Positions 18,934 to 33,100 of a stretch of 48,086 bases of DNA are shown piece after piece (the stretch's first letter is position 1; each line of letters begins with the position of its first letter). The position numbers were made by a program, and so were the translations under genes. The notes beneath the pieces were generated by a model, which was not told the DNA's origin, made no database searches, and saw only the letters and a list, made by a program, of their open reading frames with translations. The DNA is taken from the NCBI GenBank assembly GCA_018695135.1, contig JABHOV010000082.1, forward strand, positions 1 to 48,086, written 5' to 3'. The DNA comes from Candidatus Melainabacteria bacterium (GTDB lineage: Bacteria > Cyanobacteriota > Vampirovibrionia > LMEP-6097).

Positions 18934-19809
18934 TTAAGTAGTCTCTAGGCACTCGTGCGCTCTCTTGCTCAACTCATCAAGCTCAAAGCGATGAATCTGC
19001 AACTGCAATTGTTCAAGCTTAGGATCATAACTAATTGCCTTTAATTCAAGTCCAGCAATATGAGCCAAGATCAAGGCATGTAAACGCATTGAAACAATTG
19101 TTGTTGAAGATTTTTCCAGTAAATAAATCAGCTCTTCAGGCTTATAATCTTGGGCTTTAATTTCTATAAATTCTCTGTCACCTAGAAGTTCTTTGACCTG
19201 ATCATTGTCACCAGGTTGCATTTCCAAAAGCATCACTGGAACTTCAGTGGCACTCGCCAGTACTTGTTCAAGTAATTCCTTGTAATCTTCATAAGGTCTT
19301 AGTTGTCTCAAAGCCAAAACTAAATGATTCTTGGCTAAGGGTAAATCAATTTCGATTTTGTCTTTTTGTATTTTGTAATCTTCAACTAAGTTCCAAGCAA
19401 GATCAGAACCATAATAATGATCAAGATCAAGTCTTTGCAATAAATCAGAACTTGCGATGTCGCGCACGCTGATATTACTTGCGAGTCTTAGTGCAAAATA
19501 GCTTGAAAGTTTGGACCATGGACTAGTAAGCGGCCCTATACCTTGTGCCAAAATACTAATCTCTGTTCTAGTCAACCAAGAGTAAAACAGCACTAATGAG
19601 TAGTAAAGAGGGCTTAATGGGCTACTTAAATCTTGAAACAAACCACCGATAGCAATAATCTTCTCTGCTTTATAAATCAACTTGAGATGCTGCCAAAGAG
19701 AGTTCTCTTTACTTAGCCTAACAGAGTCAGGGTACTGTTTCTCAACGATAGAAGCTAGTATCTCATCGCCATAATTATCACCGCACAAATATCCAAAAAC
19801 TAAAATCAT
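18934..19809 (-). CDS. csaB: Polysaccharide pyruvyl transferase family protein (CsaB-like)
   Basis: The 291-residue protein opens with FGYLCGDNYGDEILA, the CsaB/AmsJ GD.N.GDE loop, followed by IIAIGGLFQDLSSPLS, ILAQGIGPL, ISVRDIASSDLL and YGSDLAWNL. TTIVSMRLHALILAHIAGL holds the conserved Arg-His of the substrate site. These enzymes add pyruvate ketals from phosphoenolpyruvate to wall or surface polysaccharides, often to anchor S-layer (SLH-domain) proteins; SLH-type outer-membrane anchoring is typical of the cyanobacterial lineage. The gene diverges from lepA. Confidence 0.9.
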   Translation of the reverse strand: MILVFGYLCGDNYGDEILASIVEKQYPDSVRLSKENSLWQHLKLIYKAEKIIAIGGLFQDLSSPLSPLYYSLVLFYSWLTRTEISILAQGIGPLTSPWSKLSSYFALRLASNISVRDIASSDLLQRLDLDHYYGSDLAWNLVEDYKIQKDKIEIDLPLAKNHLVLALRQLRPYEDYKELLEQVLASATEVPVMLLEMQPGDNDQVKELLGDREFIEIKAQDYKPEELIYLLEKSSTTIVSMRLHALILAHIAGLELKAISYDPKLEQLQLQIHRFELDELSKRAHECLETT

Positions 19810-21706: not shown

Positions 21707-21969
21707 GAGTCTGTCCTAAAAGTCCCATCTGCTGCGTTACGCTTGAAATATGAATTACTTACTGGGCTTCCGTATCTCCATTATCAACTATGCGTATTCA
21801 ACAACCCTGAACATCTCCGGCTCAGTCAACTCAGCCATCACTTGCGTCGCAAGCCTTTCAGGGGACGGAGCCAGCCCTGGTTTCAACGAAGACACAGTGT
21901 CCCCCGACACATCTCCTAAAATCGCATCGCAATTTTGGAGATCTTCTGGAAGCTTTTTGAACAGACTCT
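21706..21969. repeat. Palindromic element, copy E (reverse orientation, enlarged)
   Basis: Terminal inverted arms AGAGTCTGTCCTAAAAG (21706) and CTTTTTGAACAGACTCT (to 21969) enclose about 260 nt. Read on the minus strand, it holds the motifs shared with copies A-D: GGCTTGCGA, GTTGACTGAGCCG and AAGCGTAACGCAG. A further hairpin CTCCTAAAAT / AATTTTGGAG lies at 21913-21939. The left arm starts on the last base of the lepA stop codon. Copies A-D are 121-127 nt, so this one is roughly twice as long and may be a composite. Confidence 0.65.
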
Positions 21970-21980
21970 ATAATGAAGAC

Positions 21981-22000
21981 TCACAAATTTGTGATATAAT
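21981..22000 (+). promoter_or_regulatory. Palindromic operator and -10 box of the RHH gene
   Basis: A perfect 14-bp palindrome TCACAAATTTGTGA (21981-21994) directly joins TATAAT (21995-22000). A palindrome touching the -10 box is what an autoregulating ribbon-helix-helix protein would bind. The downstream gene encodes such a protein. Confidence 0.65.
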
Positions 22001-22006
22001 TAAAGT

Positions 22007-22060
22007 ATGTACATCGTAAGTACGAATGTCTCCAAGGCAGACCTTGTTGATAGGAAATGA
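22007..22060 (+). CDS. Leaderless 17-codon upstream ORF coupled to the RHH gene
   Basis: The ATG at 22007 lies 6 nt after the TATAAT, the leaderless distance seen at many genes here. It encodes MYIVSTNVSKADLVDRK and its TGA overlaps the ATG at 22057 (ATGA). The layout would let ribosomes load on the leaderless mini-ORF and restart at the RHH gene. It could instead be the remnant of a lost partner gene. Too short to assign a family. Confidence 0.4.
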   Translation: MYIVSTNVSKADLVDRK

Positions 22061-22290
22061 GAAAAATGCGCAAAGAATACAACTTAAAAGACATGAAATT
22101 CAAATCAAACCCATACGTCAGCAAACTCAAAAAAAGCGTAACTATTAGACTTGATCTTGATGTCATTGAGTACTTCAAAAATCTATCCACTGAGCTGGAC
22201 ACTCCATATCAAACATTGGTCAATGATTACCTCAAAAACTGTAAAGATCAGAAGCTTATACCAAAGACAATATGGAAAAAGATGGCTTAA
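22057..22290 (+). CDS. Ribbon-helix-helix (BrnA/CopG-like) antitoxin-type regulator
   Basis: The 77-residue protein has NPYVSKLKKSVTIRLDLDVIEYFKNLSTE, where SVTIRLD is the DNA-contacting strand, and TPYQTLVNDYLKNC as the second helix. This is the pattern of CopG/BrnA antitoxins. A possible alternative start is the ATG at 22066. No toxin gene of the expected size lies beside it: upstream is a palindromic element and the 17-codon ORF, downstream is the giant ATP-grasp gene 33 nt away. It may be an orphan antitoxin or a specific repressor; the adjacent palindrome suggests self-regulation. Confidence 0.8.
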   Translation: MRKMRKEYNLKDMKFKSNPYVSKLKKSVTIRLDLDVIEYFKNLSTELDTPYQTLVNDYLKNCKDQKLIPKTIWKKMA

Positions 22291-22323
22291 TAGCCAGCCT
22301 TGCTATAGAATGAAGCTAGCGAT

Positions 22324-25300
22324 ATGCTTGAGCTATACATATTTAACAAAGAGAACCAAACAAAAAACGGCTTAAGTCGTTGGGATGAAAACGATTCTGC
22401 GGCAACGACCAATCTAGTTAGTTTCAACCTTGATAAATTCAAAGTTAAAGATGGCTCGGACAATCTCTGCACTGAATTAATCGGCGAACTTAACAGACTC
22501 TATAAAGAAAGTGACGAGTTTCAAAACTATTTCAACAAAGTCAACAGTAAACAAATTGATGTTGAATTTAGAGATGACTATCATCACTTATTAATTTATG
22601 ACTCGATCAACAACAAACTAATCCTTGACTCCAAGATAGTCAACCAATTTACTCCTATTTATTTCTGGGCTTTTTATTACGCGCTCGCAAGACAGAACCA
22701 AACTGAAGACTTGATTTATCAAGAGATGTTTGAATTTTTCTCTTGTTTTGATTTCAGGTTAATTGATTCAGCTATCAAGTTCCTAGAAAGGGATAGAGAA
22801 GGGACCAAGAGCTTTGATGCTGGTTCATATTTATTGAATTACCTTAAGACGGTCTTTGAAAAAATCACCAAGGGCACTGAGGCAGATGGCTATTTAGCCA
22901 CGCAACTACTGCGCAATAGAGCTCTTGCCGGCAGATTGCCATACAAACTAAGTGAGTTTGAAGCAATCTTGAATAAATACGCCAATGACGACCCTTTCTC
23001 TGGTGAAGCCTGCCAAGAATATTTTGACAGCTTCAATACTAACTACGATCAAAACCATGCCAAGATTTATTACAAACACTTACTGTCTTCTCTCAAAAAG
23101 ATTGGACTCAAAACCATTGCCCAGCGCGGTTCTCGCGTTGCTCATGAACAAGGACCAATCCTCGTCAACGCTACTAGTATAATAATTGATCAAGACTTTG
23201 AATTGAGCCTGCGCAAAGCACGATCTTCAACCATAGAGGCAATCTCCAAACTTGAAGATGCTGCAAACAAATTCTTCAAACTAAGTGCTGACTTTGAATT
23301 AGACAAAGACAAACAAGAACTCAAATCACTATTTGCCGCCAAGCTACTTAATATCAATCTAGACTTAGACAACCTACTCTATCTATCCAAGTCCAACTCA
23401 CCGAAGGCTCGCTTTCTCAAGTCAGTCAACGAGTTTCGTGACAATATATCAAGTTACAGCACAAGCTTACTGCAACATGCCAGAAATAATCCAAACAAAG
23501 AAGCTTGCATCAATTTTCATGACGCAGTAAGAATCCAAGAAAAGAACTTACTCTCAATAATTTTTGACTTAAATCAATTACTAGAAGCAAGCACTCAAGA
23601 AAAAGCCAACTCAGTAGTCTACATTCAAAGACCAAGCTCAAGATCAGGTCACTTTATTGCAAGACTCTTGCTGGGACAAAAACTCTATATCGAAACGGAC
23701 AAAGAATCAGAGAAGCACAGACTTAATGGTATTCCTTACAACTTTGTCAGTCCTGATTTTGATCTAGTAGCTAGTGGTCTTGATTCATTCTTTGAAAACG
23801 CCTCCATCTCAGTTGTTACAGATAGACAAAGCGGCAAGCCTGATATCAAGTGGGAAAACGCTGAGGATCTAGCTATTAGTCTTGCACCTGGAATGTACGA
23901 GGCTATCAAAGCGGCTCAAAGCCAAGGCAAAAACTTCCACTATCAACTTGAAACTACTTTACTTGGTCCATTGATTGAGATCTTCTTAGCGATCCTGGAA
24001 AATGAAATCAGCAATGTCGCCAGCATAGAAACAGACAATCAATACAAACATGGTCTTAGTCTGGATAATTTATTTTCTGCAAGTGAAACCAAAGCCAAAA
24101 ACCCTGAGCTAGAAAAAATCATCCTTGGCTACCAGAAAGAAATTAATGGAGCTGCTGATTTTTGTTTCAAGTACTACCTGCTTGAGGACGAGGTACAGAG
24201 CTATATGCTGCAAGAAGGCTTAGATCGCCAGCAAGCTAGCCAAGAACTACTACTCAATCTATACGACGTGCAACGAGACGTTGCCAAGTATTGCTTACTC
24301 AAAAAATCACCTGAGCATGCTTCTGAGCTTTTCACTCAATTCAAGACTTGGTCAGAGGCAATAATGTCAGACGAGAAGCTCTCAGCGAAAGACAAAGCTG
24401 ATCAAATCAGCCAAAGACTCAATGAATATATCGAGAATTCAGCAGCCAAGATCTTTGTCAAAAAATATATTAGATACCCAGAATCAACAGCCCGCAAGGA
24501 ATACCTTGAAGCCAACCCTCAAATCAACAGAATCAATATCACCAGCAACAAATCCATCAAAGATGCAGATTTCTATTTTGATCTAAGTGTTGCTCCTAGT
24601 CGTATTGATTTTGGTAAACACGTAGTAGCTTCGATCACGACCATTATGGGCAGGATGATTGGCGCCAACGACCCAGAAGCACTTATCAAAGCCAAAGAAT
24701 ACATTGACTTTGTTTCACAAACTCAAAACAGCATTTTTGAATCTGCTGCTGAAGCTGGTTCAGTCAAAGTGATTGAAAACACTTGCAGGGCAATTCAATA
24801 CTCCAAAGCGATTTCTTTTCAAGGTGTTTTTCAGTCCTTTGCAATTGACGGGGCGCTAGCAAGATCTACCATCAACTCCCGTAACGACAAAGCCTCTGGC
24901 TTGCATGTCATGGAATACGGCACTATGGCTTCTACCGGTTATTGCATCACCAAAGAGCCGCTATTTATTTTACTAGGACTTGCAATTAAGTCAGATACTC
25001 TTTTTGATTACCTTGGAGTAGAAACTGAAGAAGCCAGAAACGAATTACGGTCAATCATGGCAGAACTAATGGAGCTACGCACCAGTTTCAGCTCGGACCT
25101 TGATTGGCAAATGCATATCTACCAAGAGATGGCAGAATCCAAAACCATCCAGAAATACCTGGCAAATCCAGACTATAAATGGCTTCCCAACCTCAAGTCT
25201 ATCTTTGCATTATTTAAATATCTAGCGGATTACGGCACTGAAGACCAAATGATGTCTCGTACTTATGCTCAGCTCTCTGCCAAGCTTATCGAATACTCAA

Positions 25301-28300
25301 GAATCATCAACGAAACCGGAATCATTCAACGTATTCAATTAATGAACTCTGCAATCAAAAGAGCCAAAAACAATAATCCTCAGTGTAAGGATTATAAGGA
25401 CCTGGTTATTGCACTTAACGCTTCTTACAAGGGTAATGTCTCTGACGAAAGAGAAAATGCCAATCAATACTTAATAGCGTTTATTCTTCAACAAAAACAA
25501 TATATCAAAAATACTTCTTTGCCTGAAATCGACATGCTCATAGAGCACCAAATCAAAAACTATCCTCTACCCAAAGAGATTAGAATTTATGATCCACTTG
25601 TCGATCCGCAAACCTTTATGGGCGGGGAGCTTGAGGCAAGAGCAGAATCAGCAATCCAAAAAATTGTAACACTTGAATTAGACCCTCCTTTGACAAGAGA
25701 AGTCATAGAAGCCTCAATTATTAGTTATGGTTCAGATTACAAAAGCTGGCGCCTCTTAAGCAAGCTACTCAAAACAGCCAAAGATCCTGCAGCAATCAAA
25801 GCCACTCTCGATGCAATGCAAGCAGACTTGAAATACCTTGAGACTTATAGCAAAGGCTTTTACAAGGATCCACTGATCGCTTATCAAGGAGTCGATGTCA
25901 TTCAACTCAACTCTGATCATGATCGATTAATTGAATTAATGGAAGAATTAGTTACAGTCAAAACCTTGATGCAAACAAACAATCCAGAATCAAGCCTGGT
26001 ATTACTAGACAACCCTCAACAAGCCAAAAGACCTCTATTAGACTACGACAAATCACTTGAATGGATGGCACTTGGCGGTACCGTTAGCTCGCATTTGATC
26101 TCTGAAGAAGTTTACGAGAGATGGAAAAATGAATTAAACGAATCGCAGTCCTGGGCCAAGCTTTATATCCAAAAACTACTTTATCAAGGACAACTCAAAC
26201 CTGAAGAACGCTCGCAAGATGATGCTTACCTTGAGATTAAGGCAAAGTGCTCTAGCAGTCTAGAGAAAATGAGAAGGGAAGCTGACCTCAAGCGCGACTT
26301 AATCATTCAAAAATATAAAGAAGCTCAAGAGATTGGTGTTAGTCACAAAACTCTCAAACGTTATAGCGAATGGATACTCACACTTTCCAAGCTCAATTCC
26401 CTGATTGAAGATGATGAACTTAACTTCAATGACTGGTTAGTCTTAGGTGGTAGATGGATTCTCAACGGGCAAAGCAAAGCTGATATTTATTTCATAGTAC
26501 AACTTTTTGATAAATCTCAAGAACTCAAAAACCTTGGCAAACATAGTTTCCAATTACTAGAGCTCTTTACTACTGAAGCTAAAGCTCTAGACATAGAAGT
26601 CAAAGCTCGCTCCATTGAAAATGCAGGCTCTACTAAAGAAGCTGATCTATTGGTCAGTTCAGCAGCTGACAGTCTTGAATATAGAGCTCAGTTAAGCAAG
26701 TCAAATCATTGCATCGTACTGCGCATGCATGAATTTAGCAATTACCAAATCCCCACAAATACAAACATCGAAAGGTCTTGGGACAACCTCGTGCTTGACT
26801 ACCTAGAAAAACTCAAGGAGGATTCAAGCCCAGACCAGCTCAATTTGATTTTTGCAAGAATGCTCAAGACACTGGTAGCCTACAGTGAGAGTCTCAGCAA
26901 ATTAGAACCACTACTAAAACAAGCAACAGATGATTTTTGTAGAATCAAAGAAGCAGACCACTTAAGCCTGACTCCAATATTTGGTGATCACCGTAAACAC
27001 AAAGGCGTCATTGGCAACCTGGCAGCGGCAAGTGAAGACCTTGCTCCTGTTTCTAAACTCTCAGAGATGTTTATTGTCTCGTATTTAATTATGCTGACAG
27101 CTGGGGTTGAAGATGAAAATGAAATCATTAACAAGCTAGCTATTTTCTTCGATCAATACCTCAATGTTCACGAAGAGGATTACCCACCTTATATTTTCCA
27201 TAGTCTTTGTGCTGGAGCCAGTTATGGCTTCAATCAAGACTACTACCTTGAACCAAACTTGCGAGCCAAGATGTTCAAGCTGGCTGCCAAGTCAGGAATG
27301 GATTGCTATAAAATACTTCAACATTTAATTGCTCGCAAATCAGTCTTAAAACATAGTTCGCAAGAATATCGCGATTCTATAATTGGTGATTATGACAATG
27401 GCATGATTGCAATTTGCTACCAGCAAGGCAATATTTGTATTGAAGAGCGTTTCTGGAGCTGCATGAGAGCCCTGCGTAATTTCATCCGCAATTACCACGA
27501 TAGACACCCGCTACCAATTGTAATCAAAGGAGCTGATGCCACGGTCTCCAAATTATTCCGTTACAAACTTGATGATAATTGCAAACTCAATTGGATTGCT
27601 GGTCTTTCTAATATCGGCAAACATTCTTGGGATCTCAATTGCGTTTTCAGATCACCACTCTTGCGTGACAGAATCAAAATCAATCCGAGCACTGCAACTC
27701 AATACATCAATATCTCAGTCTTTACTCCATTTTTGACAGAGAAAGGTGAGATCAAACAAATCTATACTTCATTTAGACCTGAAGTGATTGAAGAACAAAA
27801 ACTCGATTATTTATCAGCAACTGAAGGCTACCAAGTAAACGATGAAGGTTTTGTCCATGCAGTGATTAACCTAGAACCAGACATTGACATGGAAGCCAAA
27901 CATGAAGAGATGACCAAGTTACCACTGCGCCTACCTAAGCCAAACATCATCATGTCTGCGCACACTCACCCACAATATATCAACGGCTTTACCTTAGAAC
28001 TAGGTATCCCTGAAGTATGGTCTATGCTGAGCATGCAGCAGATGTATGCCAAAACCGAACTACCCAAGATTCTCAAACAAGTCTCACTAGAGGGTTTGGT
28101 GCAAATTGATTTTATGCACAAAGAGTTTGAATCAAAAAGCGACTTGGCAATAGCTTTGGTCGATAAACTCAAAGCTGCCAACTGTGACCATATTGATTCA
28201 TGGTTACTGAAAGCCAGTAGAGATTCTGGTGGAAGAGGTATTAGTGGTCAGGTAAGTATCCACAAAGACAGAGCTGATATTCTTGATTTCATTTTTGAAA

Positions 28301-29121
28301 AAACCAGAACTGATGATTTGGTAATGCAAGAATTCGTTCCCAATAATGCAAGAGCCTTTATTTTGCCAGAGTTTTTGACTAAGCTCGAAGATAGTTTCAT
28401 TGAAGCAGGCATAGCGATTACTAGAACAACTCCTTACGAGCAAATATTTTTTGCAATGAGAAGCTTCCAAAGTATCAGTGGTATCAAGGGTTATCTTTTC
28501 TCTGCCAATATTGGCGCTGTTACAGTTAATGCCGGTCAGGGAGCGAAGATGTTTTATGGTGAGCCTAGCTATATCATGCCACTTTATATCGCGGGCAAAA
28601 TCCAAAAACTCATGGATGAACAAGGTGAAGCAATACTCAAAGAAGCTATCCCAAAACATGCTCTTGAATTTGCCAAAACAAACAATATCCCCGTTGTCCA
28701 AAATCAACTTGGCAGCAGCAACTGTGTGATGCTCAATGGTTTATTTGATTATATTCCTTATGTCTACGCAATCCGCGACTCAAGACGCTATATCCTTAAC
28801 TGCAAAGACAATAGCAAAGGCGGCATTGACTACTCCTATAATTATCAAGGCGAAGAAACAATCCTACTTAGTGGTGACTGCCAAAAAGACTCCCTCGACC
28901 AACTTGAAAACCTACTTAAAGCCAGTGCCAATAATGAACACCAAGGTCCAGAAGAAATTATTGACATTGACCTTGCCAAAATTGAACTTAATAGTGGACT
29001 CGGTCAAGCCAACCTCTTACAGAAAGCAATCGAAGATATGGCTCCTGAGAATAGAGATGTGTTTCTTGAGTGGACTGAGGATCTTGGGGATATCAGCTCT
29101 TCGCTTATTGTGAAGAACTAG
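22324..29121 (+). CDS. Giant 2265-aa protein with C-terminal ATP-grasp-like domain, function unknown
   Basis: This is one uninterrupted frame of 6.8 kb. There is no signal peptide, membrane segment or obvious repeat; the first about 1850 residues look helical and acidic-basic, as in a scaffold. The C-terminal part resembles ATP-grasp ligases. W1960-K1963 (WLLK) would supply the ATP-binding Lys, SGGRGISG (1968-1975) the Gly-rich loop, and VMQEFVP (2000-2006) the hinge Glu. Then comes a candidate metal/substrate region, NCVMLNGLFDYIPYVYAIRD. A SAHTHP segment (about 1878-1883) precedes it. ATP-grasp enzymes join a carboxylate to an amine, thiol or hydroxyl through an acyl phosphate. A probable -10 (TAGAAT, 22306-22311) lies 12 nt before the ATG. 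The upstream RHH gene may regulate it. Substrate unknown. Confidence 0.8.
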   Translation: MLELYIFNKENQTKNGLSRWDENDSAATTNLVSFNLDKFKVKDGSDNLCTELIGELNRLYKESDEFQNYFNKVNSKQIDVEFRDDYHHLLIYDSINNKLILDSKIVNQFTPIYFWAFYYALARQNQTEDLIYQEMFEFFSCFDFRLIDSAIKFLERDREGTKSFDAGSYLLNYLKTVFEKITKGTEADGYLATQLLRNRALAGRLPYKLSEFEAILNKYANDDPFSGEACQEYFDSFNTNYDQNHAKIYYKHLLSSLKKIGLKTIAQRGSRVAHEQGPILVNATSIIIDQDFELSLRKARSSTIEAISKLEDAANKFFKLSADFELDKDKQELKSLFAAKLLNINLDLDNLLYLSKSNSPKARFLKSVNEFRDNISSYSTSLLQHARNNPNKEACINFHDAVRIQEKNLLSIIFDLNQLLEASTQEKANSVVYIQRPSSRSGHFIARLLLGQKLYIETDKESEKHRLNGIPYNFVSPDFDLVASGLDSFFENASISVVTDRQSGKPDIKWENAEDLAISLAPGMYEAIKAAQSQGKNFHYQLETTLLGPLIEIFLAILENEISNVASIETDNQYKHGLSLDNLFSASETKAKNPELEKIILGYQKEINGAADFCFKYYLLEDEVQSYMLQEGLDRQQASQELLLNLYDVQRDVAKYCLLKKSPEHASELFTQFKTWSEAIMSDEKLSAKDKADQISQRLNEYIENSAAKIFVKKYIRYPESTARKEYLEANPQINRINITSNKSIKDADFYFDLSVAPSRIDFGKHVVASITTIMGRMIGANDPEALIKAKEYIDFVSQTQNSIFESAAEAGSVKVIENTCRAIQYSKAISFQGVFQSFAIDGALARSTINSRNDKASGLHVMEYGTMASTGYCITKEPLFILLGLAIKSDTLFDYLGVETEEARNELRSIMAELMELRTSFSSDLDWQMHIYQEMAESKTIQKYLANPDYKWLPNLKSIFALFKYLADYGTEDQMMSRTYAQLSAKLIEYSRIINETGIIQRIQLMNSAIKRAKNNNPQCKDYKDLVIALNASYKGNVSDERENANQYLIAFILQQKQYIKNTSLPEIDMLIEHQIKNYPLPKEIRIYDPLVDPQTFMGGELEARAESAIQKIVTLELDPPLTREVIEASIISYGSDYKSWRLLSKLLKTAKDPAAIKATLDAMQADLKYLETYSKGFYKDPLIAYQGVDVIQLNSDHDRLIELMEELVTVKTLMQTNNPESSLVLLDNPQQAKRPLLDYDKSLEWMALGGTVSSHLISEEVYERWKNELNESQSWAKLYIQKLLYQGQLKPEERSQDDAYLEIKAKCSSSLEKMRREADLKRDLIIQKYKEAQEIGVSHKTLKRYSEWILTLSKLNSLIEDDELNFNDWLVLGGRWILNGQSKADIYFIVQLFDKSQELKNLGKHSFQLLELFTTEAKALDIEVKARSIENAGSTKEADLLVSSAADSLEYRAQLSKSNHCIVLRMHEFSNYQIPTNTNIERSWDNLVLDYLEKLKEDSSPDQLNLIFARMLKTLVAYSESLSKLEPLLKQATDDFCRIKEADHLSLTPIFGDHRKHKGVIGNLAAASEDLAPVSKLSEMFIVSYLIMLTAGVEDENEIINKLAIFFDQYLNVHEEDYPPYIFHSLCAGASYGFNQDYYLEPNLRAKMFKLAAKSGMDCYKILQHLIARKSVLKHSSQEYRDSIIGDYDNGMIAICYQQGNICIEERFWSCMRALRNFIRNYHDRHPLPIVIKGADATVSKLFRYKLDDNCKLNWIAGLSNIGKHSWDLNCVFRSPLLRDRIKINPSTATQYINISVFTPFLTEKGEIKQIYTSFRPEVIEEQKLDYLSATEGYQVNDEGFVHAVINLEPDIDMEAKHEEMTKLPLRLPKPNIIMSAHTHPQYINGFTLELGIPEVWSMLSMQQMYAKTELPKILKQVSLEGLVQIDFMHKEFESKSDLAIALVDKLKAANCDHIDSWLLKASRDSGGRGISGQVSIHKDRADILDFIFEKTRTDDLVMQEFVPNNARAFILPEFLTKLEDSFIEAGIAITRTTPYEQIFFAMRSFQSISGIKGYLFSANIGAVTVNAGQGAKMFYGEPSYIMPLYIAGKIQKLMDEQGEAILKEAIPKHALEFAKTNNIPVVQNQLGSSNCVMLNGLFDYIPYVYAIRDSRRYILNCKDNSKGGIDYSYNYQGEETILLSGDCQKDSLDQLENLLKASANNEHQGPEEIIDIDLAKIELNSGLGQANLLQKAIEDMAPENRDVFLEWTEDLGDISSSLIVKN

Positions 29122-29199
29122 CTTCAGTTCTGTTTGAATTTCATTAGGTTTATAGCCAAGGATTAGGTCTAAACCTAATAAGGGGGGGACTAGTCTAAA

Positions 29200-29214
29200 T
29201 CCGCCTCCACCATT
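29200..29214. repeat. Left 15-bp direct repeat resembling a tRNA/tmRNA 3' end
   Basis: TCCGCCTCCACCATT occurs here and at 31558-31572. The CCTCCACCA part looks like an acceptor stem strand plus CCA. It marks the left edge of the segment holding the Fic and toxin-antitoxin genes. A short hairpin ATTAGGT / ACCTAAT (29163-29180) and a G7 run lie just before it. No complete tRNA can be folded here. Confidence 0.6.
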
Positions 29215-29357
29215 CTCCCGCCCGGGCGACGCAAAAACAATGAAGCGCCACCGATAACGGGTATTGCCGACAAAGTCGTCAGTCCGTGTGTTTGATTAGT
29301 GAAACGAAGCTTATAGAGTAGCTTCGTACGGATATAACGCAAATCGAGACATTTTCA

Positions 29358-29437
29358 GTCCCATTACAGCCTTAATCGGGACATCGATGTCCCGATTAAG
29401 GGTATAATAGAGGAATTAATGTCCCAATTGGGATTTT
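29358..29437 (+). promoter_or_regulatory. Operator-promoter of the Fic/HTH gene
   Basis: A perfect 30-bp palindrome occupies 29371-29400, centred on GGGACATCGATGTCCC. Only 2 nt separate it from a TATAAT -10 box (29403-29408), so it covers the -35 region. A second, related palindrome (GTCCCAATTGGGA, 29421-29433) covers the expected start of transcription, and a single GTCCC half-site lies at 29358. This arrangement predicts tight repression, probably by the winged-helix domain of the gene itself. The 29122-29357 stretch holds no gene that I can see. Confidence 0.8.
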
Positions 29438-29452
29438 AAAGAGAAAAACCAT

Positions 29453-30508
29453 ATGTCCAAACGAGAACTTAATCAACGTCAAAAAATCATACTAGAGATT
29501 CTTGCTAAGGAAGGAAGTGCTAATACTGCAAGCATAGTAGCGGCTGTAGAGGAAGTAGCTTCAAAAACCATTGTAAGGGATCTAAATCTTTTACAAGATT
29601 TAGGACTAATCAAAAAAAGTGGTCAAGCAAAAGCAACAAGTTATTCTCTCTTACCACTTTATAAATTAACTAATGACATTGATAAAGAAGAATACTTTCA
29701 ATTAGAGCCTGATGATAGAGAAATAGAAAATAAATTCAATCTATCAATCTTCTCTGATCTAGAAGTTAGTTCTGACAATATATTTACCAAGAGTGAATTA
29801 GACCAAATTAAAAGTCTAACAAAAACTTATCAGGCGAACAGATCTGAACTCAGTCGAGCAACTATCAAGAAAGAATTTGAAAGGTTAACCATTGAACTTG
29901 CATGGAAGTCATCTAAGATTGAAGGAAATACTTACTCTTTGCTTGACACTGAAACGCTGTTGAAATCTGGGATAGTAAGTCCTGGTCATAGTGAAGAAGA
30001 GAGATTGATGCTGCTCAATCATAAACATTCTTTGAATTATATTTTTGATAATCCTAAGTACTATAAGGATTTAAGTCTGAATAATTTGACTGAGCTGCAT
30101 AGTTTGATTGTAGATCAACTGGAGATAGGTAAACAAATACGTACAAGATTAGTTGGCATTACTGGTACTAATTATCAACCCCTGGATAATGAATTTCAGA
30201 TTAAAGAAGCTTTGTTAAAGACTTGTAAATTAATTAATCAGTGCTCTGACCCAATGGTTAAGTCATTATACGCTTCAGCATTACTTGCTTATATTCAAGC
30301 CTTTGAGGATGGTAATAAACGAACAAGCAGAATTGTGACTAATGCACTTTTAATAGCTTATGATTATTGTCCACTTTCTTATAGAAGTATAGATATCGGT
30401 GAGTATAAAAAAGCAGTCTTGCTTTTTTATGAACAGAACAATATTCGATATCTTAAAGAGCTTTTGATTGAGCAATATGAATTTGCAGTTGATCATTATT
30501 TTTGTTAA
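29453..30508 (+). CDS. Fic-domain protein with N-terminal winged helix
   Basis: Residues 1-70 form a DeoR-like winged helix (QRQKIILEILAKEGSANTASI, then VRDLNLLQDLGLIKKSG, split here). Residues about 130-345 are a Fic domain. The inhibitory motif [S/T]xxxE[G/N] is present as SSKIEG. The active-site loop reads QAFEDGNKRTSR, so Gln stands where the catalytic His of HPFx(D/E)GNGR belongs. AMP transfer by the usual mechanism would be impaired, unless this subfamily works otherwise. Fic enzymes modify proteins with AMP or other phosphoryl groups. A possible mini-ORF (ATG at 29419, six codons) lies in the leader. The base composition is more A+T-rich than in the neighbours, which fits acquisition. 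Confidence 0.88.
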   Translation: MSKRELNQRQKIILEILAKEGSANTASIVAAVEEVASKTIVRDLNLLQDLGLIKKSGQAKATSYSLLPLYKLTNDIDKEEYFQLEPDDREIENKFNLSIFSDLEVSSDNIFTKSELDQIKSLTKTYQANRSELSRATIKKEFERLTIELAWKSSKIEGNTYSLLDTETLLKSGIVSPGHSEEERLMLLNHKHSLNYIFDNPKYYKDLSLNNLTELHSLIVDQLEIGKQIRTRLVGITGTNYQPLDNEFQIKEALLKTCKLINQCSDPMVKSLYASALLAYIQAFEDGNKRTSRIVTNALLIAYDYCPLSYRSIDIGEYKKAVLLFYEQNNIRYLKELLIEQYEFAVDHYFC

Positions 30509-30748
30509 GGACACGCTGAAAAACGAAGTTTTTCTAGTCGGGTCCATGAAAAAAGGTTCTGTCAGTGCTTAACATGGTTGTGAAAAAAAGCAGAGATGAT
30601 AACGAAGAAAGTATGACCCATGTTGGGTCTGTAAAGACCCCCACGTGACAGATAAGGGATGAGACTTTGCATTTTTCAATGCATCCTTAATAGTAATAGA
30701 TTAAGTAGAGAACTTCTCCAACTAGGTTTCCACCATTTATTACCCTTT
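30509..30748. other. Gene-free stretch with several hairpins, possible non-coding RNA
   Basis: The stretch lies between the fic gene and a T-rich terminator and contains no plausible ORF. Visible hairpins are AAAAACGAAGTTTTT (30520-30534), GACCCATGTTGGGTC (around 30615) and TGCATTTTTCAATGCA (around 30670). It may be the long 3' tail of the fic mRNA or a separate small RNA. It lacks the signatures of tmRNA, SRP RNA and RNase P RNA that I looked for. Confidence 0.3.
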
Positions 30749-30781
30749 AAACCTGGCTCTATAGCTGGTTTTTTTCTTTTT
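30749..30781 (+). terminator. Intrinsic terminator downstream of fic
   Basis: An imperfect stem (AACC-GGCT / AGCT-GGTT, with one bulge) around CTAT is followed by T7CT5. It separates the fic region from the toxin-antitoxin promoter. Confidence 0.7.
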
Positions 30782-30851
30782 GGGAACTAGACCATCATTG
30801 AAGCTTGTCCTCTCTATGTTTAGTTAACGTGTTTTTAACCATGGAGTGGCA

Positions 30852-30876
30852 TATTATACCCATAGTATGTTATACT
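30852..30876 (+). promoter_or_regulatory. Promoter and probable operator of the toxin-antitoxin operon
   Basis: TATACT (30871-30876) is the -10 box, 8 nt from the ATG. It is half of an inverted pair AGTAT-GTT-ATACT (30864-30876) and part of a direct repeat TATTATACC / TGTTATACT. Such short palindromes over the -10 box are typical sites for autoregulation by the antitoxin. Confidence 0.55.
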
Positions 30877-30884
30877 AGTTATTG

Positions 30885-31232
30885 ATGGCAAAGGTGGTAG
30901 TTAAAGTTACGGCAAAGTTTGTAAAAGACACCAAAAAACTTTTAACTGCTGAGGATTTAGAAGAGCTATATGACTATCTCTCTGAAAATCCAACAGTTGG
31001 ACCAATAATTAGAGTAACTGGAGGTGTTCGGAAATTACGTTGGAGTCCTCAAAAATCAAATAAGGGCAAGAGTGGAAGCTTAAGGATCCTTTATCACTAC
31101 TCCAATAATATTTTAGTCATCATGCTTGGCGCTTTTTCTAAGTCTGATATCGAAAATATATCAGAAGCAGAGAAAAATACGTTAAGAAAAATTCTACCGA
31201 AACTGGTTGAACAACTTATGGAGGATCTATGA
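30885..31232 (+). CDS. higB: RelE/HigB-type toxin
   Basis: The 115-residue protein has the RelE/HigB layout: an N-terminal helix pair (KFVKDTKKLLTAEDLEELYDYL), then GGVRKLRWSP, GKSGSLRILYHYSNN and ILVIMLGAFSKSDIENIS, with the basic residues that would contact mRNA. These toxins cut mRNA on the ribosome. The downstream gene overlaps by 4 nt and encodes an HTH antitoxin, the toxin-first order characteristic of higBA. I chose ATG at 30885; the TTG one codon earlier is unlikely. Confidence 0.85.
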   Translation: MAKVVVKVTAKFVKDTKKLLTAEDLEELYDYLSENPTVGPIIRVTGGVRKLRWSPQKSNKGKSGSLRILYHYSNNILVIMLGAFSKSDIENISEAEKNTLRKILPKLVEQLMEDL

Positions 31233-31525
31233 AAAAGAAATCACTAGGACTTGAATTAATTGAATCTATTGAAGAGGCTCTGAGTAAGCCCTCTACTATT
31301 AGAACGGTACGGTCTGGAATCGATGTTAAGCAAGTTAGGAAGCAGCTCAATATGACTCAAAAAGTTTTTGCTGATACTTTTGGTTTTGGTTTAGAGACTG
31401 TGAGGAAGTGGGAGCAAGGAATAAATTCACCAGACAAGAGCGTGATTTCGTACTTGCTTTGTATCCAAAAGGCGCCGAAAGTTATTAGTAAGTTGTTATT
31501 GCCTGAACTCAAAAAACAAAGCTAG
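31229..31525 (+). CDS. higA: HigA-type XRE-family antitoxin
   Basis: The 98-residue protein has an N-terminal arm (LELIESIEEALSKPSTIRT) that would contact the toxin and a C-terminal helix-turn-helix: DVKQVRKQLNMTQKVFADTFG, then LETVRKWEQGINSPD. It overlaps the toxin stop (ATGA). The protein should neutralise the toxin and repress the operon from the palindrome at 30864-30876. The pair lies inside the segment bounded by the 15-bp direct repeats. Confidence 0.87.
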   Translation: MKKKSLGLELIESIEEALSKPSTIRTVRSGIDVKQVRKQLNMTQKVFADTFGFGLETVRKWEQGINSPDKSVISYLLCIQKAPKVISKLLLPELKKQS

Positions 31526-31557
31526 ATTTTAACCATAAGGTGGGAAATCATTGTAAC

Positions 31558-31572
31558 TCCGCCTCCACCATT
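31558..31572. repeat. Right 15-bp direct repeat resembling a tRNA/tmRNA 3' end
   Basis: Identical over 15 bp to 29200-29214 and in the same orientation, 2358 bp apart. The pair brackets fic and higBA. Its position directly after the antitoxin gene suits a right-hand junction of a small integrated cassette, though no integrase gene is present. Confidence 0.6.
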
Positions 31573-31691
31573 TTTTGATAAATCATCGAAAAAGCAAAGA
31601 AAGCCGGACGTGGGCATATTCTCCTAAGGTAAATTGATAAGGCGTGGCATCAGCTGGGTACAAAATAACTGTATTAATTAAGAAGAAGACA

Positions 31692-32477
31692 ATGAAACAC
31701 TTAGGGCAAATTCATTTAAATATCAGCAAGTCTCAATTTATTGAAAAGCTCAAGTCCGTCACCATACCAGTTTTAATTGAAGAACTAAATCAATCAAATA
31801 AAGAACGAGAAAGCAATTGGTTTGTAAATCTTATTAAACAGGACTATAAAGCAATAAATAAATCCTATAACGTTTTGTGGGAGCAAGACGTATTTGTTGA
31901 TTCAAATAGACCTTCTAATACCTATTTCGCAGGTGAGGTAACTGAAAACTCAGTTAGGATTTACGTACCTAAAACGAATAAGGATAACTCATTTGATTAC
32001 AAGCACATTAAAGCTATTGATGATAAAGCACAAGGCTTGCTCAAAAAGCTTGAGGAAGCAACAATAGTAGCAGCAGAATACTCTTATGACAATTATTGTG
32101 GAGTTACAACAGATGGTGAAAGGTTGTTTTACTATGAGCTAATTTTTGATGAGTTAAACAATATTGATGTAATTAAACATAAATTCAAACACGAACAAGA
32201 TGGTAGACAATGGTTTAATTTTTTGCGGCTACCAAGAGGATGTATTGGAGACATCACAATACCGCTATATACAGGTCTAATACTCACTCTCATTTATATA
32301 CTAGGTGACTCTCCTAATATTGGCAACCTTGATTTTAAATCGTTTACCGTGTTAACGATGTTCACAAGTGTAATATTCATGCTCATTGGAAGGATATTAA
32401 TCTCTATCAAATACATAAATTATCAACGGAAAATTGCTGATGAGATTTTCATGCACGTCATAGAAAAAATCATATAG
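31692..32477 (+). CDS. Hypothetical protein with two C-terminal membrane helices
   Basis: The 261-residue protein has a soluble N-terminal domain of about 190 residues, mixed alpha/beta with VFVDSNRPSNTYFAGEVTEN and EATIVAAEYSYDNYCGV. Two hydrophobic helices follow: ITIPLYTGLILTLIYILG and FTVLTMFTSVIFMLIGRILI. I do not recognise the family. ATG at 31692 has an AAGAAGA purine-rich stretch just upstream and is preferred over the start at 31644. It is outside the direct-repeat pair but still in the A+T-rich accessory zone. Confidence 0.6.
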   Translation: MKHLGQIHLNISKSQFIEKLKSVTIPVLIEELNQSNKERESNWFVNLIKQDYKAINKSYNVLWEQDVFVDSNRPSNTYFAGEVTENSVRIYVPKTNKDNSFDYKHIKAIDDKAQGLLKKLEEATIVAAEYSYDNYCGVTTDGERLFYYELIFDELNNIDVIKHKFKHEQDGRQWFNFLRLPRGCIGDITIPLYTGLILTLIYILGDSPNIGNLDFKSFTVLTMFTSVIFMLIGRILISIKYINYQRKIADEIFMHVIEKII

Positions 32478-32668
32478 GCACAACACGTATCTCGCATTGG
32501 GAATTTTGGGGCGCGTTGTTCAGCATCCCTTTCTTTGAACAGTTCAAAAGACTCTTTTTAAAATTACTTTTTATTCTTCATTACCTGTCTCGTATAATGG
32601 GTGCACTCCAACGCGGACCCTCTTGCTTAAACTTCCAAACTTCCACAATCAAAAATACATCACCACAA

Positions 32669-32794
32669 ATCTGATTCTGTTTTTGAAGCTTCAGAGACAA
32701 GGCTTGCGAGCCCGTAGGGTTTATCCGAAGTTTACTTTCGTAAATGAGGACGAGTATAACGCAGTATGTGAAGTTTTAAGAGCAGAATCTAGAT
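32669..32794. repeat. Variable-arm palindromic element, copy B
   Basis: The outer arms ATCTGATTCTGTTTTTG... (32669) and ...AAGAGCAGAATCTAGAT (to 32794) pair over about 30 nt with one bulge. The fixed motifs are CAAGGCTTGCGAGCCCGTAG and GAGGACGAGTATAACGCAG. The inner stem TTTAC / GTAAA is copy-specific. In one plus-strand frame it reads ARRVYPKF and NEDEYNAV, nearly the peptide inserted in MurT by copy A. The right arm contains the stop codon of the gene at 32789-33100. The remaining 32478-32668 stretch shows only a possible TATAAT (32593-32598). Confidence 0.8.
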
Positions 32795-33100
32795 GTCTTG
32801 GAGTAGTTCTAGCGCCACTTCCGCCAATTCTGGCTCAGTGAGCTTATCAAATTCATACCAAAGCTCAACGATATCTGTTTTACAATCAGTCAGCTCAGGG
32901 TTCATTGCCAAAAATTCATTTAAATTATCATACATTCTATAACAAGTGATTGCTCTATAAAGATCTACAACCATTGACTTGTAGTAGCCAACCTCTTTGT
33001 CGTTAACAAAATGGCTAAAGAAAGTTGTAACCAGCTCAACTTGCGAATCATATGCTGTTGATGTCTTTGAGCTATCTCTACTATCGTCGAATAATTCCAT
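32789..33100 (-). CDS. Small acidic hypothetical protein (103 aa)
   Basis: The family is unknown. The protein is acidic and mostly helical (KSMVVDLYRAITCYRMYDNL; then LTDCKTDIVELWYEFDKL) with a Ser/Thr-rich N-terminus. There is no signal peptide or membrane segment. A TTAAAT sequence lies 6 nt before the ATG and could be its -10 box. Its last codons (LQDI, stop) fall in the arm of palindromic element B, so the C-terminus may have been altered by that insertion. Confidence 0.5.
   Translation of the reverse strand: MELFDDSRDSSKTSTAYDSQVELVTTFFSHFVNDKEVGYYKSMVVDLYRAITCYRMYDNLNEFLAMNPELTDCKTDIVELWYEFDKLTEPELAEVALELLQDI

Follow-up and report, generated by a model that had tools for sequence, protein, structure and literature searches.

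Nucleotide-sugar (NDP-sugar) 6-dehydrogenases are very well conserved enzymes of ~425 residues, described by the profiles TIGR03026 and PF00984, and include UDP-glucose dehydrogenase (UDPGDH; UDP, uridine diphosphate), the UDP-N-acetylmannosamine (UDP-ManNAc) dehydrogenase WecC, and GDP-mannose dehydrogenase (GDP, guanosine diphosphate). A survey of 229 members of this family assigned roles to 18 invariant residues (PMC4794789), and within the family Arg327 is known to contact the pyrophosphate of nicotinamide adenine dinucleotide (NAD) (PMC4794789). Here, we describe a protein of 2265 residues, hereafter the giant protein, whose gene lies on a 48,086-nucleotide stretch of DNA (the window) from a Candidatus Melainabacteria bacterium of the class Vampirovibrionia (GenBank assembly GCA_018695135.1, contig JABHOV010000082.1). 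Its middle part is a strongly diverged relative of these dehydrogenases, its C-terminus likely resembles ATP-grasp ligases such as ATP-grasp_4 (PF13535) and GSH-S_ATP (PF02955), and no described family accounts for the pairing or for the greater part of the protein.

A single gene under strong constraint

The open reading frame (ORF) at 22324..29121 on the plus strand runs from ATG to stop through 2265 codons with zero internal stops, and it is present in a single copy in the window's genome. Each of the eight other genomes sampled from its taxonomic family has an ortholog (with the window's own genome, nine genomes from five genera); seven of these orthologs are complete (2144-2265 residues, 45-93% identity) and one is split over contig ends. 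The ratio of nonsynonymous to synonymous substitution rates (dN/dS) is 0.051 when the gene is compared with its nearest ortholog, and comparisons inside a second genus give 0.07-0.08; it is lowest, at 0.021, over the NDP-sugar dehydrogenase block. Because of the collinear orthologs and the dN/dS of 0.051, this is a real gene and not a chance ORF, and the single 2265-residue protein that a first-pass annotation had read from the DNA letters is confirmed. An artefact of assembly or gene calling, or a decaying fusion, might be suspected of a window taken from a draft genome of 124 contigs, particularly as one relative's gene is broken at contig ends; seven other genomes nonetheless carry the complete, collinear gene at a dN/dS of 0.05-0.08, which in practice refutes this explanation and leaves it with almost no probability. 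Nonribosomal peptide synthetase, polyketide synthase, helicase and adhesin identities were rejected on zero profile matches, in agreement with the first-pass annotation, which had likewise seen no such features. Two ORFs that overlap the gene internally, at 28204-28707 (minus strand) and 28736-29113 (plus strand), are frame shadows with no sign of being genes.

A diverged nucleotide-sugar dehydrogenase within the chain

Residues 739-883 of the window protein match TIGR03026 at 2.3e-6, which overturns the view that more than 1800 residues upstream of the C-terminal domain match nothing. The same profile matches nine of ten member sequences (hmmscan, best 7.7e-14), the tenth being a fragment without the region, and a genome search gave matches as strong as 2.9e-15 in the orthologs, over model positions 133-348. 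An independent profile of 51 dehydrogenases, E. coli WecC among them, picks out the same stretch. The giant protein scores 28 bits to TIGR03026, against a curated cut-off of 189.8 bits.

The three homologous blocks of the known enzymes recur here in the same order. A sliding scan of the whole chain, comparing hidden Markov models (HMM) with one another, peaked at residues 749-879, 984-1046 and 1178-1256, collinear with template positions 160-287, 299-352 and 386-455; the peak scores were 37.9, 24.4 and 35.0 in chain order, over a background of ~11-19 that reached up to 22. In hhalign runs with shuffled-column controls, the first block (739-1110) scored 42.6 versus 17.3 (standard deviation, SD, 3.6) and the third 34.7 versus 14.0 (SD 2.7), while the second, at 24.1 versus 14.4 (SD 2.7), was barely over the control maximum. 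Scores were weak when only 30 close UDP-glucose dehydrogenases served as the reference, and rose after UDP-ManNAc-type enzymes were added. In addition, the motif KDPxxAxxGxDVIQLNSDHD of the third block resembles motif 8 of PMC4794789. Searches of the PDB by sequence and by profile with the giant protein yielded no significant match; the profile of residues 426-1110 ranked the NDP-sugar dehydrogenase 3g79 second and at the right place, with a non-significant E of 2.8. By these profile comparisons, residues 739-1257 are shown to be a diverged homolog of the nucleotide-sugar 6-dehydrogenases, the best-supported assignment in the giant protein. Since the three peaks are collinear and above shuffled controls, the dehydrogenase is present yet expanded by insertions, three in number and of ~70-170 residues each.

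The NAD-binding (Rossmann) domain at the N-terminal side of this core is harder to recognize. Aligned alone, it did not rise above shuffles, and when residues 428-574 were anchored to the central domain, they fell where the NAD domain would be expected, and the global alignment scored 35.5 versus 25.4 for shuffles (SD 5.5, ~1.8 SD).

Conservation of the active site is uneven. The equivalents of Pro140 (P758), Lys204 (K815), Asn208 (N819), Gly258 (G872), Asn287 (N996) and Lys320 (K1036) are kept in every covering ortholog; C874, the counterpart of the catalytic Cys260, is invariant (9/9), as are the substrate-side residues K815, N819 and K1036 (9/9) and the Arg327 equivalent, R1043. The general base Asp264 is replaced by E878 in all nine, a conservative change. 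Of the group-specific positions, indices 355 (E818) and 359 (R822) are of the UDP-ManNAc dehydrogenase type, and indices 410 (Y873) and 414 (K877) of the UDP-glucose dehydrogenase type. Ser117, Thr118 and Thr83 possibly correspond to T544, T545 and T499, via the weak alignment only. By contrast with the known enzymes, Glu141, Glu201, Asn219 and Gly257 have become S759, G812, I830 and T871 in all orthologs, and GxGxxG aligns with QRxSxRSGH in all of them, within an NAD domain whose alignment is itself weak. Because active-site residues are partly kept and partly replaced, the giant protein would best be described as a relative of the NDP-sugar dehydrogenase family yet no ordinary member, and because GxGxxG, E141, E201, N219 and G257 are replaced in all orthologs, NAD-dependent oxidation may be lost.

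A likely ATP-grasp-like C-terminal domain

The lysine K1963, the loop S1968-G-G-R-G-I-S1974 and the hinge Q2002-E2003-F2004 are invariant in all nine covering sequences, and so are R2046, N2069 and ELN (2221-2223); the order of these motifs is that of ATP-grasp ligases, in which Lys, an SGGRG loop, a QEF hinge, Arg, Asn and a late E-x-N recur. When residues 1940-2100 were compared with ATP-grasp_4 proteins (hhalign), the score was 24.7 versus 12.6 for shuffles (SD 2.1, maximum 17.9; z ~5.8), with the alignment falling at the motifs. Residues 1959-2007 are also the top ATP-grasp_4 match in the whole chain (the next region scores 18), and the GshB alignment falls at the same motif. From the motifs and these alignments, the C-terminal domain is likely ATP-grasp-like.

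The first-pass annotation had proposed ATP-grasp from K1963, SGGRGISG (1968-1975) and QEF (2002-2004), all located exactly as it said. That reading is upheld by motif order, invariance and the ATP-grasp_4 score over shuffles, and falls short in that no curated cut-off is reached: the best curated profile, GSH-S_ATP, attained E 0.031 in one ortholog. The ~215 residues between hinge and E-x-N also set the giant protein apart from ATP-grasp ligases. In GshB, this spacing is shorter. The domain could instead be a new fold that resembles ATP-grasp in K, SGGRGIS, QEF and ELN by chance, as the lack of any significant Pfam or PDB profile match and the null-level scores of the rimK and ddl templates might suggest. 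We consider this unlikely, with ATP-grasp_4 ~5.8 SD over shuffles and in top place in the chain, GshB aligned at the same motif, and separated ATP-grasp-type residues both invariant and correctly ordered.

Proposed function

What might such a protein do? The reading that we favour, and put forward tentatively, is that it is a lineage-specific cytoplasmic multidomain enzyme in which a diverged NDP-sugar 6-dehydrogenase (~428-1257) is coupled to the ATP-grasp ligase-like end (~1930-2235). The central and C-terminal dehydrogenase domains would bind an NDP-sugar, perhaps a UDP-N-acetylhexosamine, and C874, together with K815, N819 and E878, would act on C6 through a thiohemiacetal and thioester, as in the known family, to give a uronic acid. 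The ATP-grasp domain would then activate the uronate carboxylate as an acyl-phosphate and join it to an amine, so that one chain would make a uronamide or a nucleotide sugar linked to an amino acid. The two chemistries would complement each other, the carboxylate formed by the dehydrogenase being what such a ligase consumes. We infer, and only infer, that the dehydrogenase still carries out redox chemistry, which sugar it takes, that the two domains are coupled, and what they make. In its boldest form, the proposal would have one polypeptide, in one bacterial family, use a dehydrogenase without the NAD glycine motif to generate the uronyl group via the invariant Cys and an ATP-grasp domain to ligate it to an amine, giving a new class of nucleotide-sugar amides; this we regard as rather doubtful. 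The first-pass annotation had imagined a peptide, tRNA or polymer as substrate, for which we find no support; a nucleotide sugar is more plausible. An identity as a peptide or tRNA ligase was rejected, as there is no evidence for it.

Several observations weigh against a coupled dehydrogenase and ligase. The residues whose replacement may have cost the protein its NAD-dependent oxidation are among them, as are the failure of the Rossmann part to stand above shuffles alone and the absence of significant curated ATP-grasp profiles and of better than null-level scores with rimK and ddl. Single-sequence AlphaFold models were unusable (predicted local distance difference test, pLDDT, 31 for residues 1790-2265 and 37 for 739-1260). 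An ordinary, full-length canonical UDP-glucose dehydrogenase, which shares its superfamily with residues 739-1257, is encoded elsewhere in the same genome (G000:C98:3876-5207) and scores 416 bits to TIGR03026 versus the giant protein's 28 bits. No conserved polysaccharide operon surrounds the giant gene. Finally, ~1,000 residues, many of their positions invariant, fit no known family and could hold the main activity.

The uneven conservation of the dehydrogenase, with its substrate-side and Cys residues fixed and its cofactor side and several otherwise invariant residues replaced, also accommodates the main rival reading, namely that this part is a pseudo-enzyme that has kept the NDP-sugar pocket and lost the use of NAD, and that it holds or senses the sugar while the chemistry falls to the ATP-grasp-like domain or to the regions without an assignment. 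We hold this, too, to be possible without being probable. It would account for the replacement of GxGxxG, E141, E201 and N219 in every ortholog alongside retention of K815, N819, K1036 and R1043, and for a Rossmann part that is unrecognizable alone. However, the catalytic Cys and the carboxylate of E878 are invariant in the most constrained block of the protein, something a pure binding module would not usually show, and R1043, counted above with the sugar pocket, is the equivalent of Arg327, an NAD pyrophosphate contact in the known family.

A third reading places the main activity in residues 1-425 and 1258-1860, with the dehydrogenase and ATP-grasp relatives as remnants or accessories that do not process a common substrate one after the other. 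These regions do contain many invariant polar stretches, among them AQRGSRVAHEQGPIL, HEEDYPPY, ERxWDCMRALRNF, HDRHPLP and GKHSWDL; constraint peaks in the dehydrogenase block, however, and not in either of these regions, and we think this reading improbable.

If active, the coupled dehydrogenase and ligase proposed here would reveal a new route for the synthesis or modification of uronic-acid sugars and would be a trait that a single Vampirovibrionia family has fixed. If it is inactive, an enzyme core would have been reused, unusually and under very strong selection, as a nucleotide-sugar binding module. In either case, the core sits in a chain ~5x longer than that of the known dehydrogenases.

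Distribution and novelty

A profile of residues 1541-2265 matched the nine family genomes and had no credible match among 280 further genomes of the class, in which two stray matches had E ~0.007; in a 386-genome sample of the phylum, it matched two family members and nothing beyond. A profile of residues 1-425, run against 194 genomes of the class, gave matches limited to the same family, and IMG/VR viral contigs, phages, plasmids and PHROGs held no match to the giant protein. Phyla beyond the window's own were covered by a pattern scan reaching close relatives only, so the restriction holds within the phylum. Within the genomes sampled, the giant protein is restricted to one family of Vampirovibrionia. 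Literature searches on the pairing of dehydrogenase and ATP-grasp domains and on Melainabacteria ATP-grasp proteins found nothing, and the earlier suggestion of an undescribed protein holds for the architecture and for most of the chain. In another family of the class, an NDP-sugar dehydrogenase lies in an 828-residue open frame (G046:C14:258470-259684); another fusion may exist there. The coordinates of all features are collected in Table 1.

Table 1. Features of the giant-protein gene, with window coordinates and the evidence for each
Feature	Coordinates	Strand	Basis
Whole ORF, 2265 aa	22324..29121	+	open frame, orthologs, dN/dS 0.051
Residues 1-425, N-terminal, without Pfam, NCBIfam or PDB match; invariant AQRGSRVAHEQGPIL (266-280)	22324..23598	+	ortholog alignment
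Residues 428-574, candidate remodelled Rossmann (NAD) domain; VVYxQRxSxRSGH, VETD, TDxxxGxPxIKW, ETTLxGPL	23605..24045	+	anchored global HMM alignment, ~1.8 SD; not significant alone
Residues 575-738, putative insertion inside the dehydrogenase; poorly conserved, length differs among genera	24046..24537	+	ortholog alignment
Residues 739-886, end of NAD domain and central domain of the diverged dehydrogenase (K815, E818, N819, R822, C874, E878)	24538..24981	+	TIGR03026, hhalign, scan peak 37.9
C874 codon, counterpart of the S. pyogenes UDPGDH catalytic residue Cys260	24943..24945	+	invariant 9/9; family role PMC4794789
Residues 887-984, insertion, missing in genera g2 and g5	24982..25275	+	ortholog alignment
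Residues 985-1110, start of dehydrogenase C-terminal (nucleotide-binding) domain; INE (995-997), SYKGNVSDERENA (1034-1046)	25276..25653	+	scan peak 24.4; ortholog TIGR03026 133-348
Residues 1178-1257, end of dehydrogenase C-terminal domain; KDPxxAxxGxDVIQLNSDHD	25855..26094	+	hhalign 34.7; peak 35.0, template 386-455
Residues 1258-1860; conserved GSTKEADLL, HEEDYPPY, ERxWDCMRALRNF, HDRHPLP, GKHSWDL	26095..27903	+	ortholog alignment; no profile match
Residues 1930-2235, likely ATP-grasp-like; K1963, SGGRGIS 1968-1974, QEF 2002-2004, R2046, N2069, ELN 2221-2223	28111..29028	+	invariant motifs, hhalign, chain scan

Gene neighbourhood

Within the window's genus, the giant gene comes after lepA (in one relative, 76 bases separate the two), and in other genera it is flanked by different genes. 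Because no neighbour is common to all family members, it is effectively a lone gene; the neighbourhood comparison that the first-pass annotation had recommended was made across the family and returned no conserved neighbour. The sole sugar-related gene nearby encodes a polysaccharide pyruvyl transferase homolog (18934-19809) on the opposite strand.

The flanks of the gene vary even between close relatives. At 21707-22323, ~540 bases between lepA and the giant gene are lacking in the sibling genome G001, and a small ORF inside them resembles a BrnA-type antitoxin. Downstream, at 29122-32780, the window has ~3.6 kb extra relative to G001 (L017), in which a homolog of 32789-33100 lies ~65 bases after the giant gene. 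This extra DNA includes a protein with a helix-turn-helix and a Fic domain (29453-30508), what looks like a HigB/HigA-like toxin-antitoxin pair (30882-31232 and 31229-31525), and a small protein whose C-terminal part has hydrophobic stretches (31644-32477); homologs of the HigB/HigA-like pair occur at the same site in the genome G002. In genus g3 (L021 7324-9231), downstream of the giant gene come ORFs that, judged by their starts, resemble queF, queC and queE of the 7-deazaguanine/queuosine pathway, and no such ORFs stand beside the gene in the other genera.

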